64,000 nt of DNA, taken from assembly GCA_022826805.1 (NCBI GenBank), contig JAJDUH010000071.1, positions 16,947 to 80,946 on the forward strand, read 5' to 3'. Source of the DNA: Candidatus Poribacteria bacterium. GTDB taxonomy: Bacteria; Poribacteria; WGA-4E; WGA-3G. The notes below the pieces were generated by a model. That model saw only the letters and a list, made by a program, of their open reading frames with translations. It made no database searches and was not told the DNA's origin. Below, piece after piece: positions 1,756 to 63,998 of this stretch; position 1 is the stretch's first letter, and every line of letters begins with the position of its first letter. A program made the translations under genes and the position numbers.

Positions 1756-2940
1756 GTGAATTACTTTGAAAAAATAAACATTTATTTGGCTTGCACGTTG
1801 TGCATGCTGGTGGCGACGTTATGTATGAATGAGGCGACTTATTCTCACGATATACCGGTTCCCGTTGATATACAATCTTCAGATGGCTCAGAGGTTGTAC
1901 TGGTTACCCACATGGATCTTTATGATAAAGACGGAAATTTTGTCGCACATATCCATGATTGGGCAACCAGAAGGTATACGCAGGAAGAAGCCAACGAGGT
2001 TCACGCGAATAACCCGCATACGCGTCAAAGCGTAATAGATGGGCTGCCTAAAGCGGGGGACGTTTCTGGGGTTACTGGGCGTAGTTATGACAATCCGGGT
2101 TTTAGTGAGCCTGATAATACGGATAATATTGGTGGACCAGATCCGGACGGTGAATATGAGAATTATGGAATTGTAACTCTGCAAGATCACCTGCAAGATC
2201 CAAATAGTCAGGAAAATTCGCTATCTACTCAAAATGAGCAAGGCGCTCAACCATCTCTTCAAGAGAGCCAGGGAACGCAGCCAGTTGTCCCAAATCAAGT
2301 TACGGCTACTTACAACGGGGCGCAGGAAAGTTTTGAGGAAGTATCAGAACCAGAATCCTCTGACGAAGAACTGTTCGTAATCTCCGAAGGAACAGCTATC
2401 CCCGCAAGTGAGATTACTGACCCGTCTGAGTATAGTGGAACACGGTGGCGGCTTCTCTCAAGTTCGGCGACAGGACGGACTCTATCGGAGACACACCGCT
2501 TAGAGATTGTCGGTGTTATTGAAGTTGGACCCCCGCGTCGGCTGGTCATGACACTCCGCAATCATACAAGAAGTTTCATTAATTTAGCGGAAGGTTGGTC
2601 TCTGCTCCTGTTGCGTCCTGATGGGAGTTCTGCCGCAGCAAACATGCGGAGCCAAGGTAGTTTGTTTATCACACCGCAGAAAGCACGCGGTGAAAAATAC
2701 GCTGACACGGATATAGCCCTGTTGCCGAGAAAGTCGTTTAGAAAATTGGATGGTAAGGAACGTTTTTTCTTAAGTCTTCAGTATTTCTACGGTTCACAGA
2801 GCGGTTATAAGCCCGGAGATGTCTTCATTCTTTCCTATGAAGGAGCGGAAGTGAGTCGATATCCTGAAGCGATGCAACTCGCACCGCGCCTACACAGAAC
2901 TCTCACTACGACTTGGGGTTCACTGAAAAAGTCCCAATAG
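1756..2940 (+). CDS. Secreted hypothetical protein with acidic/Gln-rich linker
   Basis: The GTG start is preceded by AGGAGAAA at 1741. Residues 1-30 form a signal peptide with a hydrophobic core (YLACTLCMLVATLCM). The mature N-terminus has a short HMDLYDKDGNFVAHIHDW segment followed by a low-complexity linker rich in Gln, Asn, Asp, Glu and Ser (about residues 100-220). The C-terminal 170 residues (from about TRWRLLSSSATG) look like a compact beta-rich domain, but I do not recognise the family. It is separated from the next secreted protein by a strong hairpin, so the two are probably separate transcription units. Function unknown; extracytoplasmic location is inferred from the signal peptide. 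Confidence 0.75.
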   Translation: MNYFEKINIYLACTLCMLVATLCMNEATYSHDIPVPVDIQSSDGSEVVLVTHMDLYDKDGNFVAHIHDWATRRYTQEEANEVHANNPHTRQSVIDGLPKAGDVSGVTGRSYDNPGFSEPDNTDNIGGPDPDGEYENYGIVTLQDHLQDPNSQENSLSTQNEQGAQPSLQESQGTQPVVPNQVTATYNGAQESFEEVSEPESSDEELFVISEGTAIPASEITDPSEYSGTRWRLLSSSATGRTLSETHRLEIVGVIEVGPPRRLVMTLRNHTRSFINLAEGWSLLLLRPDGSSAAANMRSQGSLFITPQKARGEKYADTDIALLPRKSFRKLDGKERFFLSLQYFYGSQSGYKPGDVFILSYEGAEVSRYPEAMQLAPRLHRTLTTTWGSLKKSQ

Positions 2941-2950
2941 CCTGGAATTA

Positions 2951-2982
2951 AAGTCCCTACACCTTCTTAGGCGTAGGGACTT
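2951..2982 (+). terminator. Hairpin terminator candidate
   Basis: AAGTCCCTAC pairs perfectly with GTAGGGACTT, extended by CC/GG, around a short TTCTTA loop, 10 bases after the stop codon of the 1756 gene. There is no long T-run, so it may be a weak terminator or a REP-like hairpin. Confidence 0.6.
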
Positions 2983-2999
2983 CTGTTACAGGACAAATC

Positions 3000-5900
3000 A
3001 TGAACACAAAGTTGCTTCTATCGTTCTGTCTACTTATTTTTGGGGTGTTCTCGTTTCTACCTAAGACTTTTGCTCAAGTAACTGACCGTCACAATGTTGT
3101 ACGATTAATCTATTTCGTTCCACGGCACCGCCAGCCACAACCTAACATCGACGCGAAACTGGATAGGCTTATCAAAGATGTCCAACGCTTTTTCGCCGAT
3201 GAGATAGAACGCCACGGGTTTGGTCGGAAAACCTTCCAATTTGAAACCGATGGCCGCGGCAATGCCGTCGTGCATCGCGTGACTGGAAACTTTCCCGATA
3301 CGTATTATCATCAGGACACTGCGTCTAAGGTTGTTAAGGAGGTCTCTCCACGATTCGACTTCACAAAAAATGTATATCTTTTGATCGTTGATGTAAGTAG
3401 CGAACTCATTGATAGTGTCTGTGGACGGGGCGGCGAGTTTTGGAATACTGCAGGCGATTGGGGCGGACATGCTTTCATTCCAGCGTCCGGCGAATGTTTA
3501 AACACACATTTAGGTTTTGAACTAACTGCTCACGAACTCGGACACGCCTTTGGCTTACCCCATAACTTTACGAGAAATGCCTATATCATGTCTTATGGGC
3601 AGAACCCAGACCAATTGGCACACTGTAGCGCTGAATGGTTGAATACCAACCGGTATTTTAATGATCACCGAACGCCGTCTAACAATCACGAAACGACAAT
3701 TCAGATGCTTGCGCTCGAGGCAGATCCAGACTATACCTTTCGTTTTCGCTTCAAGATAAGTGATACCGATGGACTTCGACACTCGCAATTGGTAACTCCC
3801 GCGACTTCTATCTATGAGGACCCAGGTTCCCCAAAATTGATCGGCTGTAAAGAATTGGAAGGGGATAGTCAGAGTGTGGAGTTTATTACGAATCAACTCT
3901 CCCTACAGTCCGAGCTCATAACATTGCGTGTTGTTGATGCTCTTGGCAATTTTTCATGGCAAGACTATCCGATTGATATCAGTGACTTACTCCCTGCCCC
4001 GCGAGTTGTCTCGATTCCTGATGTGAATTTGGCAGCAGCAATTCGCAGTGAACTTGGATTGAGACGATTCATCAACATCACGCAACTGGATATGTTAAAG
4101 TTAACAGCCTTGTCCGCTGAAAATCAGCAAATAAAAGATCTTACTGGGCTTGCCCACGCAAGAAATCTAAAGTACTTGTTTCTCAGTCAAAATCAGATTA
4201 AAGACATTGCTATCTTGGAGAATCTGCCAAATTTAGCAGTGTTATCGCTCTCGTTTAATCAAATTAACGACTTCACCTCCATCGCAAGGCTGACCAAATT
4301 AATTGAATTAGATCTTTCAGAGAATCCAGGTAATGATATAAGACCGGTTACAAAATTAACACAGTTACAAACGCTATATCTAAGTGGGTATCGCATCCAA
4401 GATTTGACACCGTTTGCCAGATTTACCAATCTACTCCGTTTGGGACTTGAGCACAACCAGATTAGGGACCTCACTCCACTCGCAGAATTGACACAATTAA
4501 GAAATTTACGGCTCTGGGACAATCAAATCCAAGATCTTACACCGCTCACAGAATTAATCAATTTGGAGTGGTTGGAGCTTTCAGAAAATCGAATTAGCAA
4601 CCTTACCCCCCTCAAAAGCTTGACACAACTTCAGGTCTTGCAACTTTCCAGTAATCAGATTGATGATCTCACACCGCTCTCTAAGTTTAAGAATTTAACG
4701 CATTTGACACTTGTGGGTAATCAGATTGGCGACATTACACCTCTTTCGGCATTAACGAATTTAGAGGTGTTGGTTGCAAATCACAATCAGATTAGGGACC
4801 TTACCCCTCTCACCACATTAAGACAACTGACGACTTTATGGCTCACAAACAATCAAGTAAGCAACCTCAAGCCACTTACAAAGTTACGTAGTCTTGTTGA
4901 ATTGAGAGTCGCCCAGAATCCAATCGCTGACAGAACACCGCTTCACGTACTACTCAAACGCAATTCAAGGCTAAAATTGGATATCGATCCGACCCAACTC
5001 TCCCCTATTGTTTTATTCAGCGGAGCAGGATACCCACCGATGTATTGGACGGATACCGCGACGAGCGGATTCTACCGGCTTGTCGGAACCAAAGAAACAG
5101 TAGAAAATAACGCACAAGGCATCCAAAATATAATAGCACTTGCTGTAGATGTTGACGGTGGTAAGCTTTACTGGATAGAACAGAAAGACAAAAAACACGG
5201 CAGAATAGTCCGTGCTAATCTTGACGGTTCAAATGTCCAAGTAGTTAAGCAGTTATTGTATGTCCCTCGCGACATTGCAATTGACACTGCTAACAAAGGA
5301 ATATACTGCACGAATCCCAATGGTAAAATTCAACGCATCAACTTTAATGGATCAAACTTTAAAGCCAATCTCGTTACAAACTTAGATACACCAAATCATA
5401 TCGCCTTAGATGTCCCTGGCGGCAAGTTCTATTGGACGGAAAAAGGGGAAAGTATCCGGCGGGCGAACCTGGACGGTTCAAATATCGAAACGCTTGTCAC
5501 AGACTTAGGAGCACTCGGCGGGATAACTATCGCTGCAGACAAACTCTATTGGACAGAACACACAAGCGAGAATACGGGGAACATCCGAAGTGCCAACCTT
5601 GATGGCGCAAACGTTCAAACGCTTGCTACATTAAAGAGTCTACCTCTTGGTATTGCTGTGGATACAGCCGGCAGAAAGCTATACTGGACGAACGCTACGG
5701 GACGGATCCAGCGCGCAAATCTCAACGGTAAAAATATCCAAAACGTCGTTACGGGTCTATCAAATCCGATAGATTTGGTGCTCGGGATGGATGCAGCCAC
5801 TGTGCCAGTCGCCGCCGCACCTGCTGCAGTCCTTCCGGATGCCACAGATTTATTGCCAAATTATCCCAACCCCTTCAATCCAGAAACATGGATACCTTAT

Positions 5901-57795: not shown

Positions 57796-59133
57796 ATGCC
57801 AATTCGTCGTTCTCTCAAAATGCTACTCTCAAAAATGGCGTGGCATTCCTACAATACCTATCGCAAAGGTGCCTATTACCGTTCCCAACTCTCACAAACG
57901 ATCGAGTTATTGGATGGGGCGCGCGAAGCGATTATGGAGTTTCAGACAGAACGCCTACAAAAACTCCTCCGACACGCATATCGGACAACTCCTTATTACC
58001 ATAAATTGCTAAAGACAGACGCGCCAGATATAACACAGATCCCCACACTTGAGAAACGGAACATCCGAGAACATTTGGAGCGTCTCTGTTCTGGAGCCTT
58101 TACAGCACAAGAACGTATCAAGAACGCCACTGGTGGTTCGACAGGGACACCGCTTACTTTCTATCAGGGGAGATATTATTGGAATCAACGCAACTTGAGT
58201 GTCTACTATTTCGATCGATGGGCAGGTTGGAATCCCGGTGAACCCCAACTGGTGGTCTGGGGAGCACCAGCGGATATGGAAGGCGATGCGCGCTGGAAAC
58301 ATAAGTTCAATGAATTTTGGCGAAATCAGTATTGGCTCAATGGGTTTTATCTCACACAGAGAACGATGCGAAACGCTTACGAGAAAATGGAGCGCGCTCG
58401 CCCACAGACAATACTCGCCTATCCGTCCTCGCTTTATCAGTTTGCAAGATTTGTCTTTGAAAACGGCTTGAAGCCGAGATGGGGACTGAAAGGGATTATC
58501 TCCTCAGCGGAGATGTTACATCCGCATTACCGAGATTTGGCGGAAACTGTTTTTACGACTAAGGTCTTCAACCGCTATGGTGGGCGGGAAGTCGGCTTAA
58601 TTGCGATGGAATGCACGGAAGGCAGGATGCATATCAACTGCCGAGACATCTACCTTGAAATAGATAGCCCCAATCCATACACCATACCTGGAGAGATACT
58701 CATTACGCAACTCAATAACTATGTGATGCCTTTTATTCGCTATCGGATTGGAGACATCGGCATGCTCTCTGACGAAATCTGTCCATGTGGCAATGAATTG
58801 CCTATTTTGGCAGACCTATTCGGACGTTCCACTGCGACTTTCCGAACGAGGACCGGGACCCTAATACACGGCGGCTATTTTACACAACGATTCTATCATG
58901 TTACAGGTGTGAACCAATTCCAGCTCATCCAGGAGACACTGAGGCGCTGTGTCTTGAAACTGGTTATTGACGAACAATGGACGGAAGAAACACGCCGTTA
59001 TCTGATCCAGAGCATCCAGGAGGTGCTCGGCGGAGATGTCGTTGTTGCAGTAGAATTTGTAAAGGAGATTCCGCTGCCTACTTCAGGCAAGCGGGAATTC
59101 ACGATTTCAAAAGTAACCGCCGGCAGTGATTAA
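57796..59133 (+). CDS. CapK/PaaK-like adenylate-forming enzyme
   Basis: 445 residues. The AMP-binding P-loop-like motif GGSTGTPL is at about 112. FNRYGGREVGLIAMEC (about 260) is the A5-like motif, RYRIGDIGM the A7-like motif, and a C-terminal SGKREF the A10-like motif with its Lys. It belongs to the phenylacetate-CoA ligase/CapK group, whose members activate aromatic or polysaccharide-related acids. The stop overlaps the stop of the minus-strand fusion gene by 4 bases. Substrate unknown. Confidence 0.85.
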   Translation: MPIRRSLKMLLSKMAWHSYNTYRKGAYYRSQLSQTIELLDGAREAIMEFQTERLQKLLRHAYRTTPYYHKLLKTDAPDITQIPTLEKRNIREHLERLCSGAFTAQERIKNATGGSTGTPLTFYQGRYYWNQRNLSVYYFDRWAGWNPGEPQLVVWGAPADMEGDARWKHKFNEFWRNQYWLNGFYLTQRTMRNAYEKMERARPQTILAYPSSLYQFARFVFENGLKPRWGLKGIISSAEMLHPHYRDLAETVFTTKVFNRYGGREVGLIAMECTEGRMHINCRDIYLEIDSPNPYTIPGEILITQLNNYVMPFIRYRIGDIGMLSDEICPCGNELPILADLFGRSTATFRTRTGTLIHGGYFTQRFYHVTGVNQFQLIQETLRRCVLKLVIDEQWTEETRRYLIQSIQEVLGGDVVVAVEFVKEIPLPTSGKREFTISKVTAGSD

Positions 59134-61553
59134 ATATTTTTTCTACTGCAGAGTTCTCGCAGTGTTTCTGTACGCGCTGTTCCACCAGGAAGGTAAGCCA
59201 AAATCAATCCGTCAACCGGCAGACGCCGATCCGCGATGACCCCTGTGCTCTGTTCCGCAGTTATACCTTTAGAAAGCAACAGGTAGAATGTATCCTTTGC
59301 CCAACCGGGGGTTGTAAAGAAATTCCCTTGTCCTTTTGAAATAACCAGATCCACTTCCAACAACGCGTTGAAGAATTCCGGTGTCCCGTGATAGAGATTC
59401 GTGCCGATTGTCTTTGCCCCAGACGACATTAACCTGACGACCCCGTCCTGCATCCCAGTCTGTAGTTTTCGGAATTGCGGCAAATTTACGATCTCCTGTA
59501 GGTCCGCCACTGTTGCATCGTTGCTGGCATTGTCTGCTTTGCCAACAATTGTGATACGATGTCCGCATTCAATGAGATCTTGAACGAAGGCAATGTCGAA
59601 AATCACTTCGCCGTCGTTATCAACGAGCCAAACGATCTCCTGTGGTCTCCCGTCAATTACCCGCTCGCGAAACGTTTCATAGCAATCTATAGTGAAAGGT
59701 GCGTCAACCGCTGCACGCAACACTTCGGAAAAATAGTCAGGATTCGCTTGCAACCGCTTGACAACCCGCTCACTACTATAATCAATGATATTTCCTGTAA
59801 CAACCAACTTCAAGCGATGCAGCCAGTCGTTATCCCAGAACTCCGGTAGGAGTTCCAAAGCCGTCTTTCGTGCATGCAGTTTATCGTGGTGATAAGGGTT
59901 CAGGTTGCCTGTATGGAGGGTTACCATCTCAAAAATGCTTCCCCATATCTCTTCAGGCGTGAGTGCCTCAATCAGATAGGCACCGTTTGCCCGGCGCATG
60001 TCCAAAAATGTTTTCACTGCCTCGCACATAATCTGTTGTAATTCTGGTATACGTGTCGCACGTGGAATCAACTCTGAAGCACTATGCGATTGGATATGCT
60101 GTCGCAGCCCTTCCCAATCCGGTAATTCCTTCATCTCACCAAGATTAAAGACCCCAGGGTTATATCCTGACGGCACAATCTTATCAAAAACCGATTGCGG
60201 AACCGAAGGTGGTGCTTGCGCCGGTGGAACGCCGAGCGTTCGGTCTGCCAAAGTAATGCCAGATGGAATCACCGTCCCTCGCGCCACAACCGATGAGAGT
60301 TGAACCTCACTTCCAACGCTTACGGCGTCAAATGTGCAATTTTTAATCGTACTCGCAGTTGCAAGACCGTGCACTGGTGCTGACACTGTTTCGGATAGCG
60401 GGTTAGCTGCAAATATCGTATCGGTCGCAGAGACCTCTTCCAACCCAACCGCATCGCCCACCGTCGTCGCACCGAGCAGTGTGACGTTTTCGAGTCTGCA
60501 ATAGTCTCCAATCCGAACTTTTTCACCAAGATGCACCCTACCAATGAGGTAACACGCCATTCCAATCTCAATGTCCTCACTGCCCAATGTTATCTGTGCA
60601 GTCGGATCGACGCGAATCCCTTTCTGAGCAAGGAACTCGCGAGTCTGTGCAAGGGTCACCGTTTCACCCGATAGGACGTTCGACCAACGATTAACACCCG
60701 ACAACACCTCGCCGCGATAGATAAAAGCGTTTGTTTTCAAGCCGTCTTCATAGCAGTGACGTATCAGATCGACCTGGTGGAGTTCATTGTTTCGGTTTGC
60801 GTGCGGTTGTAACCGATGCATCCGTTCTAACAACGCGCTTTTCCGAATAAGTGTAATACCGGTGTTAGTATATGCCTCGCCTTTATGCCACCGGTCCCAC
60901 ATCTCCTGTTTTTCTGTCGCCGTCATGTCGTACCACTCTTTGGTTCCTATAAACTTCCCTTCTCCATCGAAGAAAAGTCCTCCTTTATCTACGACTGTTT
61001 CAGGGACTTTACCGCATAAAGTGACGTCCGCACCGGAAATAAAGTGGGAGAGTAACGTCTGCGCAAAAATATCTCTTTCCAAAAACGGCTCGTCGCCGAA
61101 CGACACCCCAACCCATTCAGCATCGGCCTCGCCGAGTGCAGGCAGTGCCGCTTGTAACGCACCACCCGTGCCGTTCATCTCTTCTTGGATACAGTAAACA
61201 GCATTGGGACCTAACAACTGTTCTGCAGTGCCGCTTTTCTCGATACGCGACACCATCTGTGGATTGATAACAACAATATCGGGACGCGTACCGGGCAGAT
61301 GCCGTCGAGAGCGTTGGAGCATATTTTCCTCGCCAAAGGTGATGTCCAGCGTTTTGCTCAGGCGTCCAGTGGGGTCAATACGAGTGCCTTTACCCGCAGC
61401 AAGCACCACCCACTGTGGGGTAAGGTAACTTTCAAGGGAATCTGTGGGGAGTGTCGATAGGAAAGTTTCAAGAGCATCGGTATCTGCTGAGATTGCCGCA
61501 AGGGTGTCTTTTAGTGGGCAACCGAGTAGGTTTTCAAGAAAGTGTGTCTTCAT
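59130..61553 (-). CDS. Fusion of GlmU-like nucleotidyltransferase, left-handed beta-helix and DUF89 phosphatase
   Basis: 807 residues. An N-terminal NTP-transferase domain has LAAGKGTRIDPTGRLSKTL (51-69), GTGGALQAALPAL and GVSFGDEPFL. A hexapeptide-type repeat region (about 310-460: ITLGSEDIEIGMACYLIGRVHLGEKVRIGDYC) is the acyltransferase-like helix. Residues about 495-800 are a DUF89 metal-dependent phosphatase: DMRRANGAYLIEALTPEEIWGS, DNDGEVIFD (about 643) and KGQGNF (about 742). DUF89 proteins remove phosphate from reactive or misplaced sugar phosphates. The fusion suggests coupled sugar-nucleotide synthesis and damage control. The gene abuts the second hsdM exactly (start at 61553, hsdM stop at 61554). 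Confidence 0.85.
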   Translation of the reverse strand: MKTHFLENLLGCPLKDTLAAISADTDALETFLSTLPTDSLESYLTPQWVVLAAGKGTRIDPTGRLSKTLDITFGEENMLQRSRRHLPGTRPDIVVINPQMVSRIEKSGTAEQLLGPNAVYCIQEEMNGTGGALQAALPALGEADAEWVGVSFGDEPFLERDIFAQTLLSHFISGADVTLCGKVPETVVDKGGLFFDGEGKFIGTKEWYDMTATEKQEMWDRWHKGEAYTNTGITLIRKSALLERMHRLQPHANRNNELHQVDLIRHCYEDGLKTNAFIYRGEVLSGVNRWSNVLSGETVTLAQTREFLAQKGIRVDPTAQITLGSEDIEIGMACYLIGRVHLGEKVRIGDYCRLENVTLLGATTVGDAVGLEEVSATDTIFAANPLSETVSAPVHGLATASTIKNCTFDAVSVGSEVQLSSVVARGTVIPSGITLADRTLGVPPAQAPPSVPQSVFDKIVPSGYNPGVFNLGEMKELPDWEGLRQHIQSHSASELIPRATRIPELQQIMCEAVKTFLDMRRANGAYLIEALTPEEIWGSIFEMVTLHTGNLNPYHHDKLHARKTALELLPEFWDNDWLHRLKLVVTGNIIDYSSERVVKRLQANPDYFSEVLRAAVDAPFTIDCYETFRERVIDGRPQEIVWLVDNDGEVIFDIAFVQDLIECGHRITIVGKADNASNDATVADLQEIVNLPQFRKLQTGMQDGVVRLMSSGAKTIGTNLYHGTPEFFNALLEVDLVISKGQGNFFTTPGWAKDTFYLLLSKGITAEQSTGVIADRRLPVDGLILAYLPGGTARTETLRELCSRKNI

Positions 61554-63020
61554 TTACTTTTGATTGTCTAATTCTGCTTGGATATTCTGGAATTGTGCTA
61601 ACGCAGCTTCTAAGTTCTTAGTGATTTCCCCTACCAATACATCTGGGGTCGGAAGGTCTGCCACATCTTCAAACGAGTCCTCATTGAACCAGAAGATGTC
61701 AAGGTTGACGTGCTCGCGTTCAATAAGTTCATTGTAACTAAAAACGCGGAACCGCTCGGTTTCTATTCGTGCTTCGCGGTTCTCTGGTTTGTAAACAGCG
61801 ATAAAATCTTGTAGGTCGGTGTCTGTCAGTGGGTTTGTCTTGAGTGTAAAACGTTTATCCGTCCGTAGATCATAAATCCAGAGTTTCTGGGTCCACGGTT
61901 CTTCGCTTGCAGGACGCTTATCGAAAAAGAGCACATTTGCCTTGACCCCTTGGGCGTAGAAGATACCGGTAGGCAATCGTAGGAGGGTATGGACATCAAA
62001 TTGTTTCAGCAGCTGCTGACGAATTATTTCCCCTGCTCCGCGTTCAAATAAGACATTATCTGGAAGAACAACGGCAGCGCGTCCATCTGTTTTTAAAATA
62101 GTTTTGATGTGTTGGAGGAAATTGAACTGTTTATTTGAAGTTGTTGCCCAGAAATCGTCGCGTTCATAAGTAAGTGAAGCACTGTTCCGTTTACTGCCAT
62201 CAGTAGAGATTGTGATATTACTCCTATTACCGAAAGGTGGATTGGTAAGCACCATGTCGTAGCGGTTACCAGGGTCGCGACTCAGACTATCAGCAGTCGT
62301 AATTGGACTCTCGGTTCCCCCAATACCGTGCAGATATAGATTCATCACGCAGAGGCGAACGACGTTGTCAACAATGTCTGTACCAGCAAAGGTGTTAAAT
62401 CTTAGAAACTCTTTCTGTTCGCGGGTCATCATACTGCTGTAATTTTCGGAAATATAGTCGTGTGCCGCGAGAAAGAAACCACCCGTGCCGCACGCAGGGT
62501 CACAGACAGTTCGCATGGGAGACGGACGCATCACTGTAATCATTGCTTTGATGAGGGGACGCGGTGTGAAGTACTGCCCCGCCCCGCTTTTGGTATCTTC
62601 AGCGTTTTTCTGTAGCAGTCCTTCGTAGATAGTGCCTTTAATGTCGGCAGTCATCCCGCTCCAGTTCTCTGCGTTGATGAGATGGATAAGTCGTTGCAGG
62701 TTCGCGGGTGTCTGAATGCGATTTTGCGATTTTCGGAAAATTACACCGAGTAAACCTTGCGCGTTACTCAACTCCCTCAGAATTTTAACGTATTGCGCCT
62801 CTAACTCGGTACCACTCTCTTTGAGAAGGCTCTCCCAATCCAAATCAGCGGGGATAGTTGGCGGTTTGTTGAAGGGAGGTTTTGTCTGTTCGTCAGCAAG
62901 TTTGAGAAACAGCAGATAGGTAAGTTGTTCGACATAATCTGCGTAGCTGACGCCGTCGTCTCGAAGGACGTTACAGAAATTCCAGAGTTTTTGGACAATT
63001 GTTGCAGATTCGTTTGACAT
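61554..63020 (-). CDS. hsdM: Type I restriction methyltransferase subunit HsdM, second family
   Basis: 488 residues. Helical domain (QKLWNFCNVLRDDGVSYADYVEQLTYLLFLKLADE) and methylase domain with SAM motif DPACGTGGFF (174-183) and catalytic NPPFG (about 265). It belongs to the HsdM group with the DDGxSYxDYVEQL start, different from the one at 26470. No hsdS or hsdR is visible on this side, and it is followed without a gap by the nucleotidyltransferase-DUF89 gene, so any subunits may lie beyond the right edge or be missing. Confidence 0.92.
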   Translation of the reverse strand: MSNESATIVQKLWNFCNVLRDDGVSYADYVEQLTYLLFLKLADEQTKPPFNKPPTIPADLDWESLLKESGTELEAQYVKILRELSNAQGLLGVIFRKSQNRIQTPANLQRLIHLINAENWSGMTADIKGTIYEGLLQKNAEDTKSGAGQYFTPRPLIKAMITVMRPSPMRTVCDPACGTGGFFLAAHDYISENYSSMMTREQKEFLRFNTFAGTDIVDNVVRLCVMNLYLHGIGGTESPITTADSLSRDPGNRYDMVLTNPPFGNRSNITISTDGSKRNSASLTYERDDFWATTSNKQFNFLQHIKTILKTDGRAAVVLPDNVLFERGAGEIIRQQLLKQFDVHTLLRLPTGIFYAQGVKANVLFFDKRPASEEPWTQKLWIYDLRTDKRFTLKTNPLTDTDLQDFIAVYKPENREARIETERFRVFSYNELIEREHVNLDIFWFNEDSFEDVADLPTPDVLVGEITKNLEAALAQFQNIQAELDNQK

Positions 63021-63079
63021 AGAAAAACCTCAATAATGTATAAAAAGAAGTTTGTTCAGGTGGGATGGAAATTAACACG

Positions 63080-63505
63080 CTATTGAGAGGATAAGGCCTT
63101 TAACGTTGGAAGGAAATGGACAAGTGAGGCTAAATCGGTTAATAAGCAAGTTCCTTTGACTTCATCCGTGCTCCCTAAAGAAGCCCCATAAACCACTTGA
63201 TTATCGCCATATATGCTCATCGTTGCTATCCCTTTACCGTCTGTTGAACGCCATTCAAACCCAATTCCTCCATCCATCAACCAGCCAAGGTCAGCCGTAG
63301 GGACGTTATAATCAAAAAGAATTTCTAATAACAAATACGTATCGCGATAAGCAGAATCTTGAACCTGATCAATCTCCTTATCCAAGGCACAAGCTTCCTC
63401 TGCTTCTTGGCGAATTTCATCTAATTCACGTTGCACCTGTTTCCGAAACAGCATTTTGTCTGTAGGCGGTAAAGGGAAATGATATTCCTTTTGCTCGACT
63501 TCCAT
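63080..63505 (-). CDS. Hypothetical protein upstream of hsdM
   Basis: 141 residues; I do not recognise the family with certainty. The N-terminal half is a charged coiled-coil-like helix (VQRELDEIRQEAEEACALDKE), and the C-terminal half a beta-rich domain (GGIGFEWRSTDGKGIATMSIYGDNQVVYGASLG). It lies 28 bases after a PIN-type protein and runs in the same direction, so it may be its partner in a toxin-antitoxin-like pair. Confidence 0.6.
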   Translation of the reverse strand: MEVEQKEYHFPLPPTDKMLFRKQVQRELDEIRQEAEEACALDKEIDQVQDSAYRDTYLLLEILFDYNVPTADLGWLMDGGIGFEWRSTDGKGIATMSIYGDNQVVYGASLGSTDEVKGTCLLTDLASLVHFLPTLKALSSQ

Positions 63506-63533
63506 AATGTTTTTCTACCTAAGAGTGGCTGTA

Positions 63534-63998
63534 TTATTTTAAAAGAGGTACAAAGCCAGCTTGTTCAAAGTGGTGATCTGCAGTCAAGGCTTTAGTCATG
63601 CCTCGCTCTTCCATCACAATAAAACTGACAGCGTCAACAAGGCTCCATTTTTTATCCAACCGATTTACGAGCAATTGCCATGCTTTCTCGTCTAACACTT
63701 CGTCTACATGAACGATTTCCACCCAATCGGCCGAGCGGATAGTCTCAATATTGTTTAGAACAGCTGAACGATACTGCCCACGAGAACTGAGTAGAACAAT
63801 TAGTTCACTTAAAACATAGTTTGTTGTGACAACATATTGATTGTTTTGTTGCCACCGTTTCACTAGTGCTTTGTCAAGATTATCTTGACGTTTAAGTTGA
63901 AGGTTGTTATGCTTGTGGGTCCATATCCGAATACTCACCTTGTGAGGATTGTATGCCAGCGAAATGTCACCACGTGCGACTCGATGCCTGTCAACGCG
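63534..63998 (-). CDS. PIN-type toxin-like protein, N-terminus not recognisable, runs to window edge
   Basis: The track gives GTG at 63938, but the frame is open to the window edge without a stop (…RHRVARGDISLAYNPHKVSIRIW), so the 5' end is undefined. The visible part fits a PIN domain: NQYVVTTNYVLSELIVLL, EKAWQLLVNRLDKKWSLVDAVSFIVMEERG and KALTADHHFEQAGFVPLL. The first PIN strand with its catalytic Asp (normally VDTSAWIAL) is not present in the expected place, so the gene may be fused or damaged near the start. Confidence 0.6.
   Translation of the reverse strand, partial: RVDRHRVARGDISLAYNPHKVSIRIWTHKHNNLQLKRQDNLDKALVKRWQQNNQYVVTTNYVLSELIVLLSSRGQYRSAVLNNIETIRSADWVEIVHVDEVLDEKAWQLLVNRLDKKWSLVDAVSFIVMEERGMTKALTADHHFEQAGFVPLLK

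Follow-up and report, generated by a model that had tools for sequence, protein, structure and literature searches.

Characterized DUF89 domains depend on two conserved aspartates that are essential (PMC9352595). In PANK4, a DUF89 domain fused to a pantothenate kinase-like domain hydrolyses 4′-phosphopantetheine and thereby limits coenzyme A (CoA) synthesis (PMC9352595). For most prokaryotic DUF89 phosphatases the physiological substrates are unknown. We analysed a window of 64,000 nucleotides from a Candidatus Poribacteria bacterium (GenBank assembly GCA_022826805.1, contig JAJDUH010000071.1, positions 16,947 to 80,946; coordinates below are those of the window). One open reading frame (ORF) on its minus strand (59130..61553 including the stop codon, 807 aa) joins a GlmU-like nucleotidyltransferase, a short β-helix, a linker and a DUF89 phosphatase domain. 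From sequence and context we infer both activities and their substrates, and we put the case at about even that the product is a bifunctional hexosamine enzyme, in which a split-pathway GlmU-type uridylyltransferase is combined with a DUF89 phosphatase whose substrate is either a phosphorylated hexosamine intermediate or a by-product.

The fusion shares with GlmU, a UDP-N-acetylglucosamine diphosphorylase and glucosamine-1-phosphate acetyltransferase of cell-wall synthesis, the N-terminal nucleotidyltransferase fold, the residues of the UTP and Mg sites, three of the five residues compared at the sugar site and the beginning of the β-helix, but it carries DUF89 in place of the acetyltransferase half, has additional N-terminal helices and is changed at the positions of Y197 and T199. 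It is not an Arch_GlmU (TIGR03992), as its best GlmU-type match is bacterial GlmU. With the stand-alone prokaryotic DUF89 proteins (PH1575/2g8l, AF1104/2ffj; NF040824) it has in common the fold and the DNxGE, ND and KGQGN motifs; it matches NF040824 at 70 bits, under the cut-off of 440. Vertebrate CMP-sialic acid synthetase, with its C-terminal HAD domain, is likewise a sugar-activating enzyme followed by a phosphatase-like domain, but the families differ on both sides (HAD fold, CMP-sugar). PANK4-type fusions resemble the present protein in that DUF89 lies C-terminal to a biosynthetic enzyme or its relict and takes its substrate from the intermediates of that enzyme's pathway (PMC9352595); they differ in having a kinase or pseudokinase partner, in serving CoA synthesis and in being eukaryotic. 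The partner of DUF89 in PANK4 is degenerate in amniotes, whereas in two families of Poribacteria it is DUF89 that decays.

The sequence-only reading had described a single chain of three domains, and this is borne out by a frame with an ATG start and no internal stop codon and by Pfam and NCBIfam matches. Residues 1–46 (61416..61553, minus strand) form a helical extension (model helices H2–10, H14–21 and H25–34) that is common to related fusions in an alignment of 25 and is not found in GlmU. The nucleotidyltransferase domain follows at residues 47–300 (60654..61415, minus strand). Its assignment as GlmU-like rests on a structure match and on Pfam matches at residues 49–179, where NTP_transf_3 scores 40.2 bits against a cut-off of 27 and NTP_transferase barely passes (21.6 vs 21.2 bits). 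The NCBIfam GlmU profile (TIGR01173) also matches, over residues 49–374, at 80.1 bits against a curated cut-off of 366.85. The left-handed β-helix of the same reading is present but short (residues 310–445, 60219..60626, minus strand; boundaries approximate, from the end of the GlmU profile and the model strands), since Hexapep stays under its cut-off (14.6 vs 27). The GlmU match covers profile positions 4–315 of 452 and ends before the acetyltransferase half with its CoA site; we therefore rejected the fusion as a full GlmU. The predicted metal-dependent phosphatase domain, DUF89/ARMT1-like, occupies residues 528–807 (59133..59972, minus strand), with PF01937 well over its gathering cut-off at residues 540–745 (110.2 bits vs 25; 1.5e-31). 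PF01937 also matches 10/10 fusions tested at E ≤ 0.001.

An AlphaFold2 model was built from 27 close sequences (mean predicted local distance difference test score, pLDDT, 61.8, higher across much of the DUF89 part). This model of moderate confidence matches the DUF89 entries 2g8l, 2ffj and 1xfi in the PDB with target template modelling (TM) scores of 0.67–0.73, and in an alignment with PH1575 (2g8l) the DNDGE, ND and KGQGNF motifs fall on their counterparts. The motifs thus lie in their fold context, as had been supposed, and their occurrence outside it was rejected. GlmU is the top structural match of the transferase part, and the GlmU entries matched include Mycobacterium tuberculosis GlmU with N-acetylglucosamine-1-phosphate. 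Because the alignment is shallow the model is weak in this part, and our residue claims there therefore rest on alignments.

Active-site conservation was scored over 25 representative fusions, with GlmU positions mapped by alignment with the Escherichia coli enzyme. The equivalents of G14, R18, K25, Q76, G81, D105 and N227, which we take to form the UTP/Mg site of GlmU, are invariant in all 25, as are those of G140, E154 and N169, presumably at the N-acetylglucosamine (GlcNAc) site; the T82 equivalent has one exception. The Mg ligands D105 and N227 correspond to Asp154 (61092..61094, minus strand) and to Asn288 in a GVNRW motif (60690..60692, minus strand). A class signature of RID, GDE, EW and GVNRW is invariant or nearly so. 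In the DUF89 domain, alignment and comparison with the characterized proteins (PMC9352595) place the first catalytic aspartate, D645, in the DNDGE motif (residues 645–649, 59607..59621) and the second, D679, in N678-D679 (59517..59522); the KGQGNF motif, placed by alignment, spans residues 740–745 (59319..59336; all three on the minus strand). D645, N646, N678, K740 and Q742 are invariant in 23/25 fusions and lost in genomes G051 and G052, the former of which is alone in having lost D679 as well. These two genomes are the single representatives of the deep families f6 and f7, and their DUF89 domains are also shortened and lie on very long branches. Their transferase active sites are kept; the transferase is therefore what stays constant in the fusion, and two lineages can do without the phosphatase. 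In the other 23 representatives, some of them only 40% identical, the conserved phosphatase site argues for selection on catalysis. The two degenerate orthologs lie at L111:6960-9032(-) and L112:3230-5347, and G051 additionally carries a stand-alone DUF89 protein (L182:4440-5297).

Poribacteria are mostly sponge symbionts, and our sample comprised 85 genomes of the phylum (Poribacteriota). A search with the fusion gave matches in 79/85; one of these (G061) is a stand-alone DUF89 protein only, leaving orthologs in 78. About 72 of the 78 are single, near-full-length open frames, the remainder being fragments at contig ends, genes split over contigs or the two degenerate cases, and identity among the deepest full-length orthologs falls to ∼ 40%. 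An assembly artefact, which the sequence-only reading had considered, or a chance ORF is thereby excluded. The nucleotidyltransferase–DUF89 arrangement was found in none of 302 genomes of other phyla and 396 relatives of another genome, a sample that is small against all species; DUF89 matches in these ∼ 700 genomes were mostly frames of ∼ 280–420 aa. One scan of virus contigs also gave no fusion. A tree built from DUF89 domains groups every fusion into a single clade (support 100/99), separate from the stand-alone proteins of this phylum and of others, which fits one fusion event and vertical descent thereafter. A CxxC (such as CFPC or CVPC) stands near the start of the stand-alone proteins compared, whereas none of the fusions has one. 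Both domains belong to known families. DUF89 with Poribacteria, GlmU with Poribacteria, and DUF89 with 'nucleotidyltransferase domain' were never named together in the literature searched. As far as that search shows, the combination, its restriction to one phylum in our samples and its glmM-yvcK context are undescribed; the founding DUF89 paper lay outside the comparison, and priority is not certain.

The gene context is most informative away from the window. In five deep-branching genomes of two families the fusion adjoins yvcK (glmR) and/or a nag gene. The G057 locus reads GlgC–Arch_GlmM–YvcK–fusion–NagB on one strand, those of G058 and G050 YvcK–fusion–NagB, that of G054 fusion–NagB and that of G052 Arch_GlmM–YvcK–fusion–NagA. 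NCBIfam models are over cut-off for GlgC, Arch_GlmM, YvcK and NagB in G057 and for GlmM and NagA in G052, and in G057, G058 and G050 the YvcK frame overlaps or abuts that of the fusion. YvcK/GlmR controls or performs the synthesis of UDP-N-acetylglucosamine (UDP-GlcNAc) in Firmicutes. Because of these neighbours (glmM, yvcK, nagB and nagA), the context places the fusion in amino-sugar/UDP-GlcNAc metabolism.

The surrounding pathway appears to be divided in this phylum. Canonical GlmU was over cut-off in 0/11 Poribacteriota genomes and Arch_GlmU in 0/85; an Arch_GlmU-like protein of ∼ 455–495 aa occurs in the window's family but stays under cut-off. GlmM and YvcK are adjacent in genomes of the window's own genus and elsewhere. 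GlmS was over cut-off in 2/12 genomes (G036 and G044), both without NagB, and NagB was found in exactly the other ten (G000, G005, G010, G022, G029, G082, G037, G057, G050 and G051). This exact complementarity suggests that NagB makes glucosamine 6-phosphate in the genomes lacking GlmS and may run in the amination direction. Genome G044 (one contig, 98% complete) has a GlmM-YvcK-GlmS cluster and also encodes LpxA, which uses UDP-GlcNAc. Its other matches to the GlmU models are IspD, KdsB, a MocA-like protein, a 248-aa protein without assignment, and acyl- or acetyltransferases. In this genome the uridylyltransferase step has its clearest candidate in the fusion, with YvcK as the alternative. 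In G036, G038 and G039, GlmS lies beside a 225–232 aa protein whose match to Arch_GlmU is confined to the acetyltransferase half and which would complement the fusion. The stand-alone β-helix proteins of this split GlmU lie directly beside GlmS at L193:6901-7575, L194:6080-6754 and L195:6555-7250(-).

On the bifunctional hexosamine reading, the N-terminal half would convert UTP and N-acetylglucosamine-1-phosphate, or a close hexosamine-1-phosphate, to a UDP-sugar and pyrophosphate. The product would most likely be UDP-GlcNAc, with acetylation in part of the phylum supplied by the stand-alone β-helix protein next to GlmS. The DUF89 domain would carry out metal-dependent hydrolysis of a phosphorylated hexosamine intermediate of this pathway or of an off-pathway sugar phosphate arising from it. 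We infer that the coupling may serve to limit or clean the hexosamine-phosphate pool, comparable to the action of PANK4's DUF89 domain on an intermediate of CoA synthesis. A bolder version, which we hold only tentatively, is that the fusion replaces the GlmU uridylyltransferase throughout the phylum and that DUF89 serves as an integral gate, controlling hexosamine-phosphate flux along the UDP-GlcNAc pathway together with YvcK. A phosphatase that gates hexosamine flux would parallel PANK4 in CoA synthesis. If the bolder version is true, the fusion would link a DUF89 enzyme to the synthesis of a cell-envelope precursor for the first time and be the bacterial equivalent of the control that PANK4 exerts on CoA. 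For a DUF89 phosphatase, the fusion and its glmM/yvcK/nagB/nagA operons offer a specific pathway for testing in place of a blind screen, and the lack of canonical GlmU together with the frequent absence of GlmS where NagB is present points to a division of the UDP-GlcNAc pathway in Poribacteria.

Several observations weigh against this assignment. The position of GlmU Y197 is occupied by His259 in 25/25 fusions and that of T199 by Val261 in 23/25, and the sugar may therefore not be GlcNAc. No acetyltransferase candidate was found in G044, and glmM-yvcK does not adjoin the fusion in the window's own family. A 464-aa Arch_GlmU-like protein of the window's genus, with its β-helix complete, could make UDP-GlcNAc. 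YvcK was found in 12/12 genomes tested, and in Firmicutes this protein has uridyltransferase activity (PMC10128056). The same substitutions and proteins, together with the distinct class signature, would suit an enzyme that makes another nucleotide sugar, leaving UDP-GlcNAc to YvcK and/or the Arch_GlmU-like protein and using DUF89 to remove a phosphate in that other pathway. Heptose and KDO (3-deoxy-d-manno-octulosonic acid) activation, where a phosphatase acts beside a nucleotidyltransferase, would be the model. We consider this unlikely in view of the operons with GlmM, YvcK, NagB or NagA, of GlmU as the best structural match and of the complete genome G044, which has no Arch_GlmU match at E ≤ 1e-30.

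The sequence-only reading had favoured a repair-coupled or bifunctional catalyst. This is only partly supported: the three domains and the conserved fusion hold, but repair coupling is not obligatory, since G051 and G052 have kept the transferase without the phosphatase residues. In its strict form, damage control, the transferase would make the UDP-sugar and DUF89 would remove toxic or wrong sugar phosphates such as fructose-1-phosphate or hexosamine-1,6-bisphosphate released by GlmM. Fructose-1-phosphate is the best substrate of yeast Ymr027w and human ARMT1 (PMC8669784), the neighbours GlmM and NagB handle hexose and hexosamine phosphates, and the DUF89 residues are intact in most fusions. 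Nevertheless, the step is dispensable in the two degenerate families, and sequence does not tell whether the substrate is damaged or a regular intermediate; the context fits the normal pathway equally well, and we regard strict damage control as possible though doubtful. Retention of a DUF89 remnant in G051 and G052 after loss of the catalytic residues, and the missing Cys-x-x-Cys of the stand-alone proteins, would be expected of a domain with a chiefly structural or ligand-sensing role, with phosphatase activity secondary. This is improbable given a phosphatase site that is fully conserved in the other 23 representatives, including the 40%-identical ones, and given that each degenerate family is one genome.

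In the window's family the fusion stands between a variable island (HsdM and toxin–antitoxin-like genes) and a convergent PaaK-like gene, and this neighbourhood says little about its function. The PaaK-like adenylate-forming enzyme (57838..59133, plus strand), whose stop codon overlaps that of the fusion, is conserved only within the family. On the other side, the stop codon of a type I restriction–modification M subunit (HsdM/N6_Mtase, 61554..63020, minus strand) abuts the start of the fusion; this neighbour is not conserved and is probably unrelated. HsdM, a small protein and a PIN-domain protein make up the upstream island in the window (61554-63938), and the neighbours differ among genomes of the genus. 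A functional link of the fusion to the HsdM and PIN neighbours was rejected, as the flank varies between genomes. Two further fusions were seen outside this locus. In genome G311, of another phylum, a single 3527-aa frame (L181:912-11492) with a signal-peptide-like start carries a CofD/YvcK-like domain (1470–1905) and an intact-looking DUF89 domain (2897–3179); here YvcK-like and DUF89 domains were joined independently. G051 encodes an 836-aa fusion of NTP transferase, β-helix and phosphohexomutase domains (L198:4090-6597).

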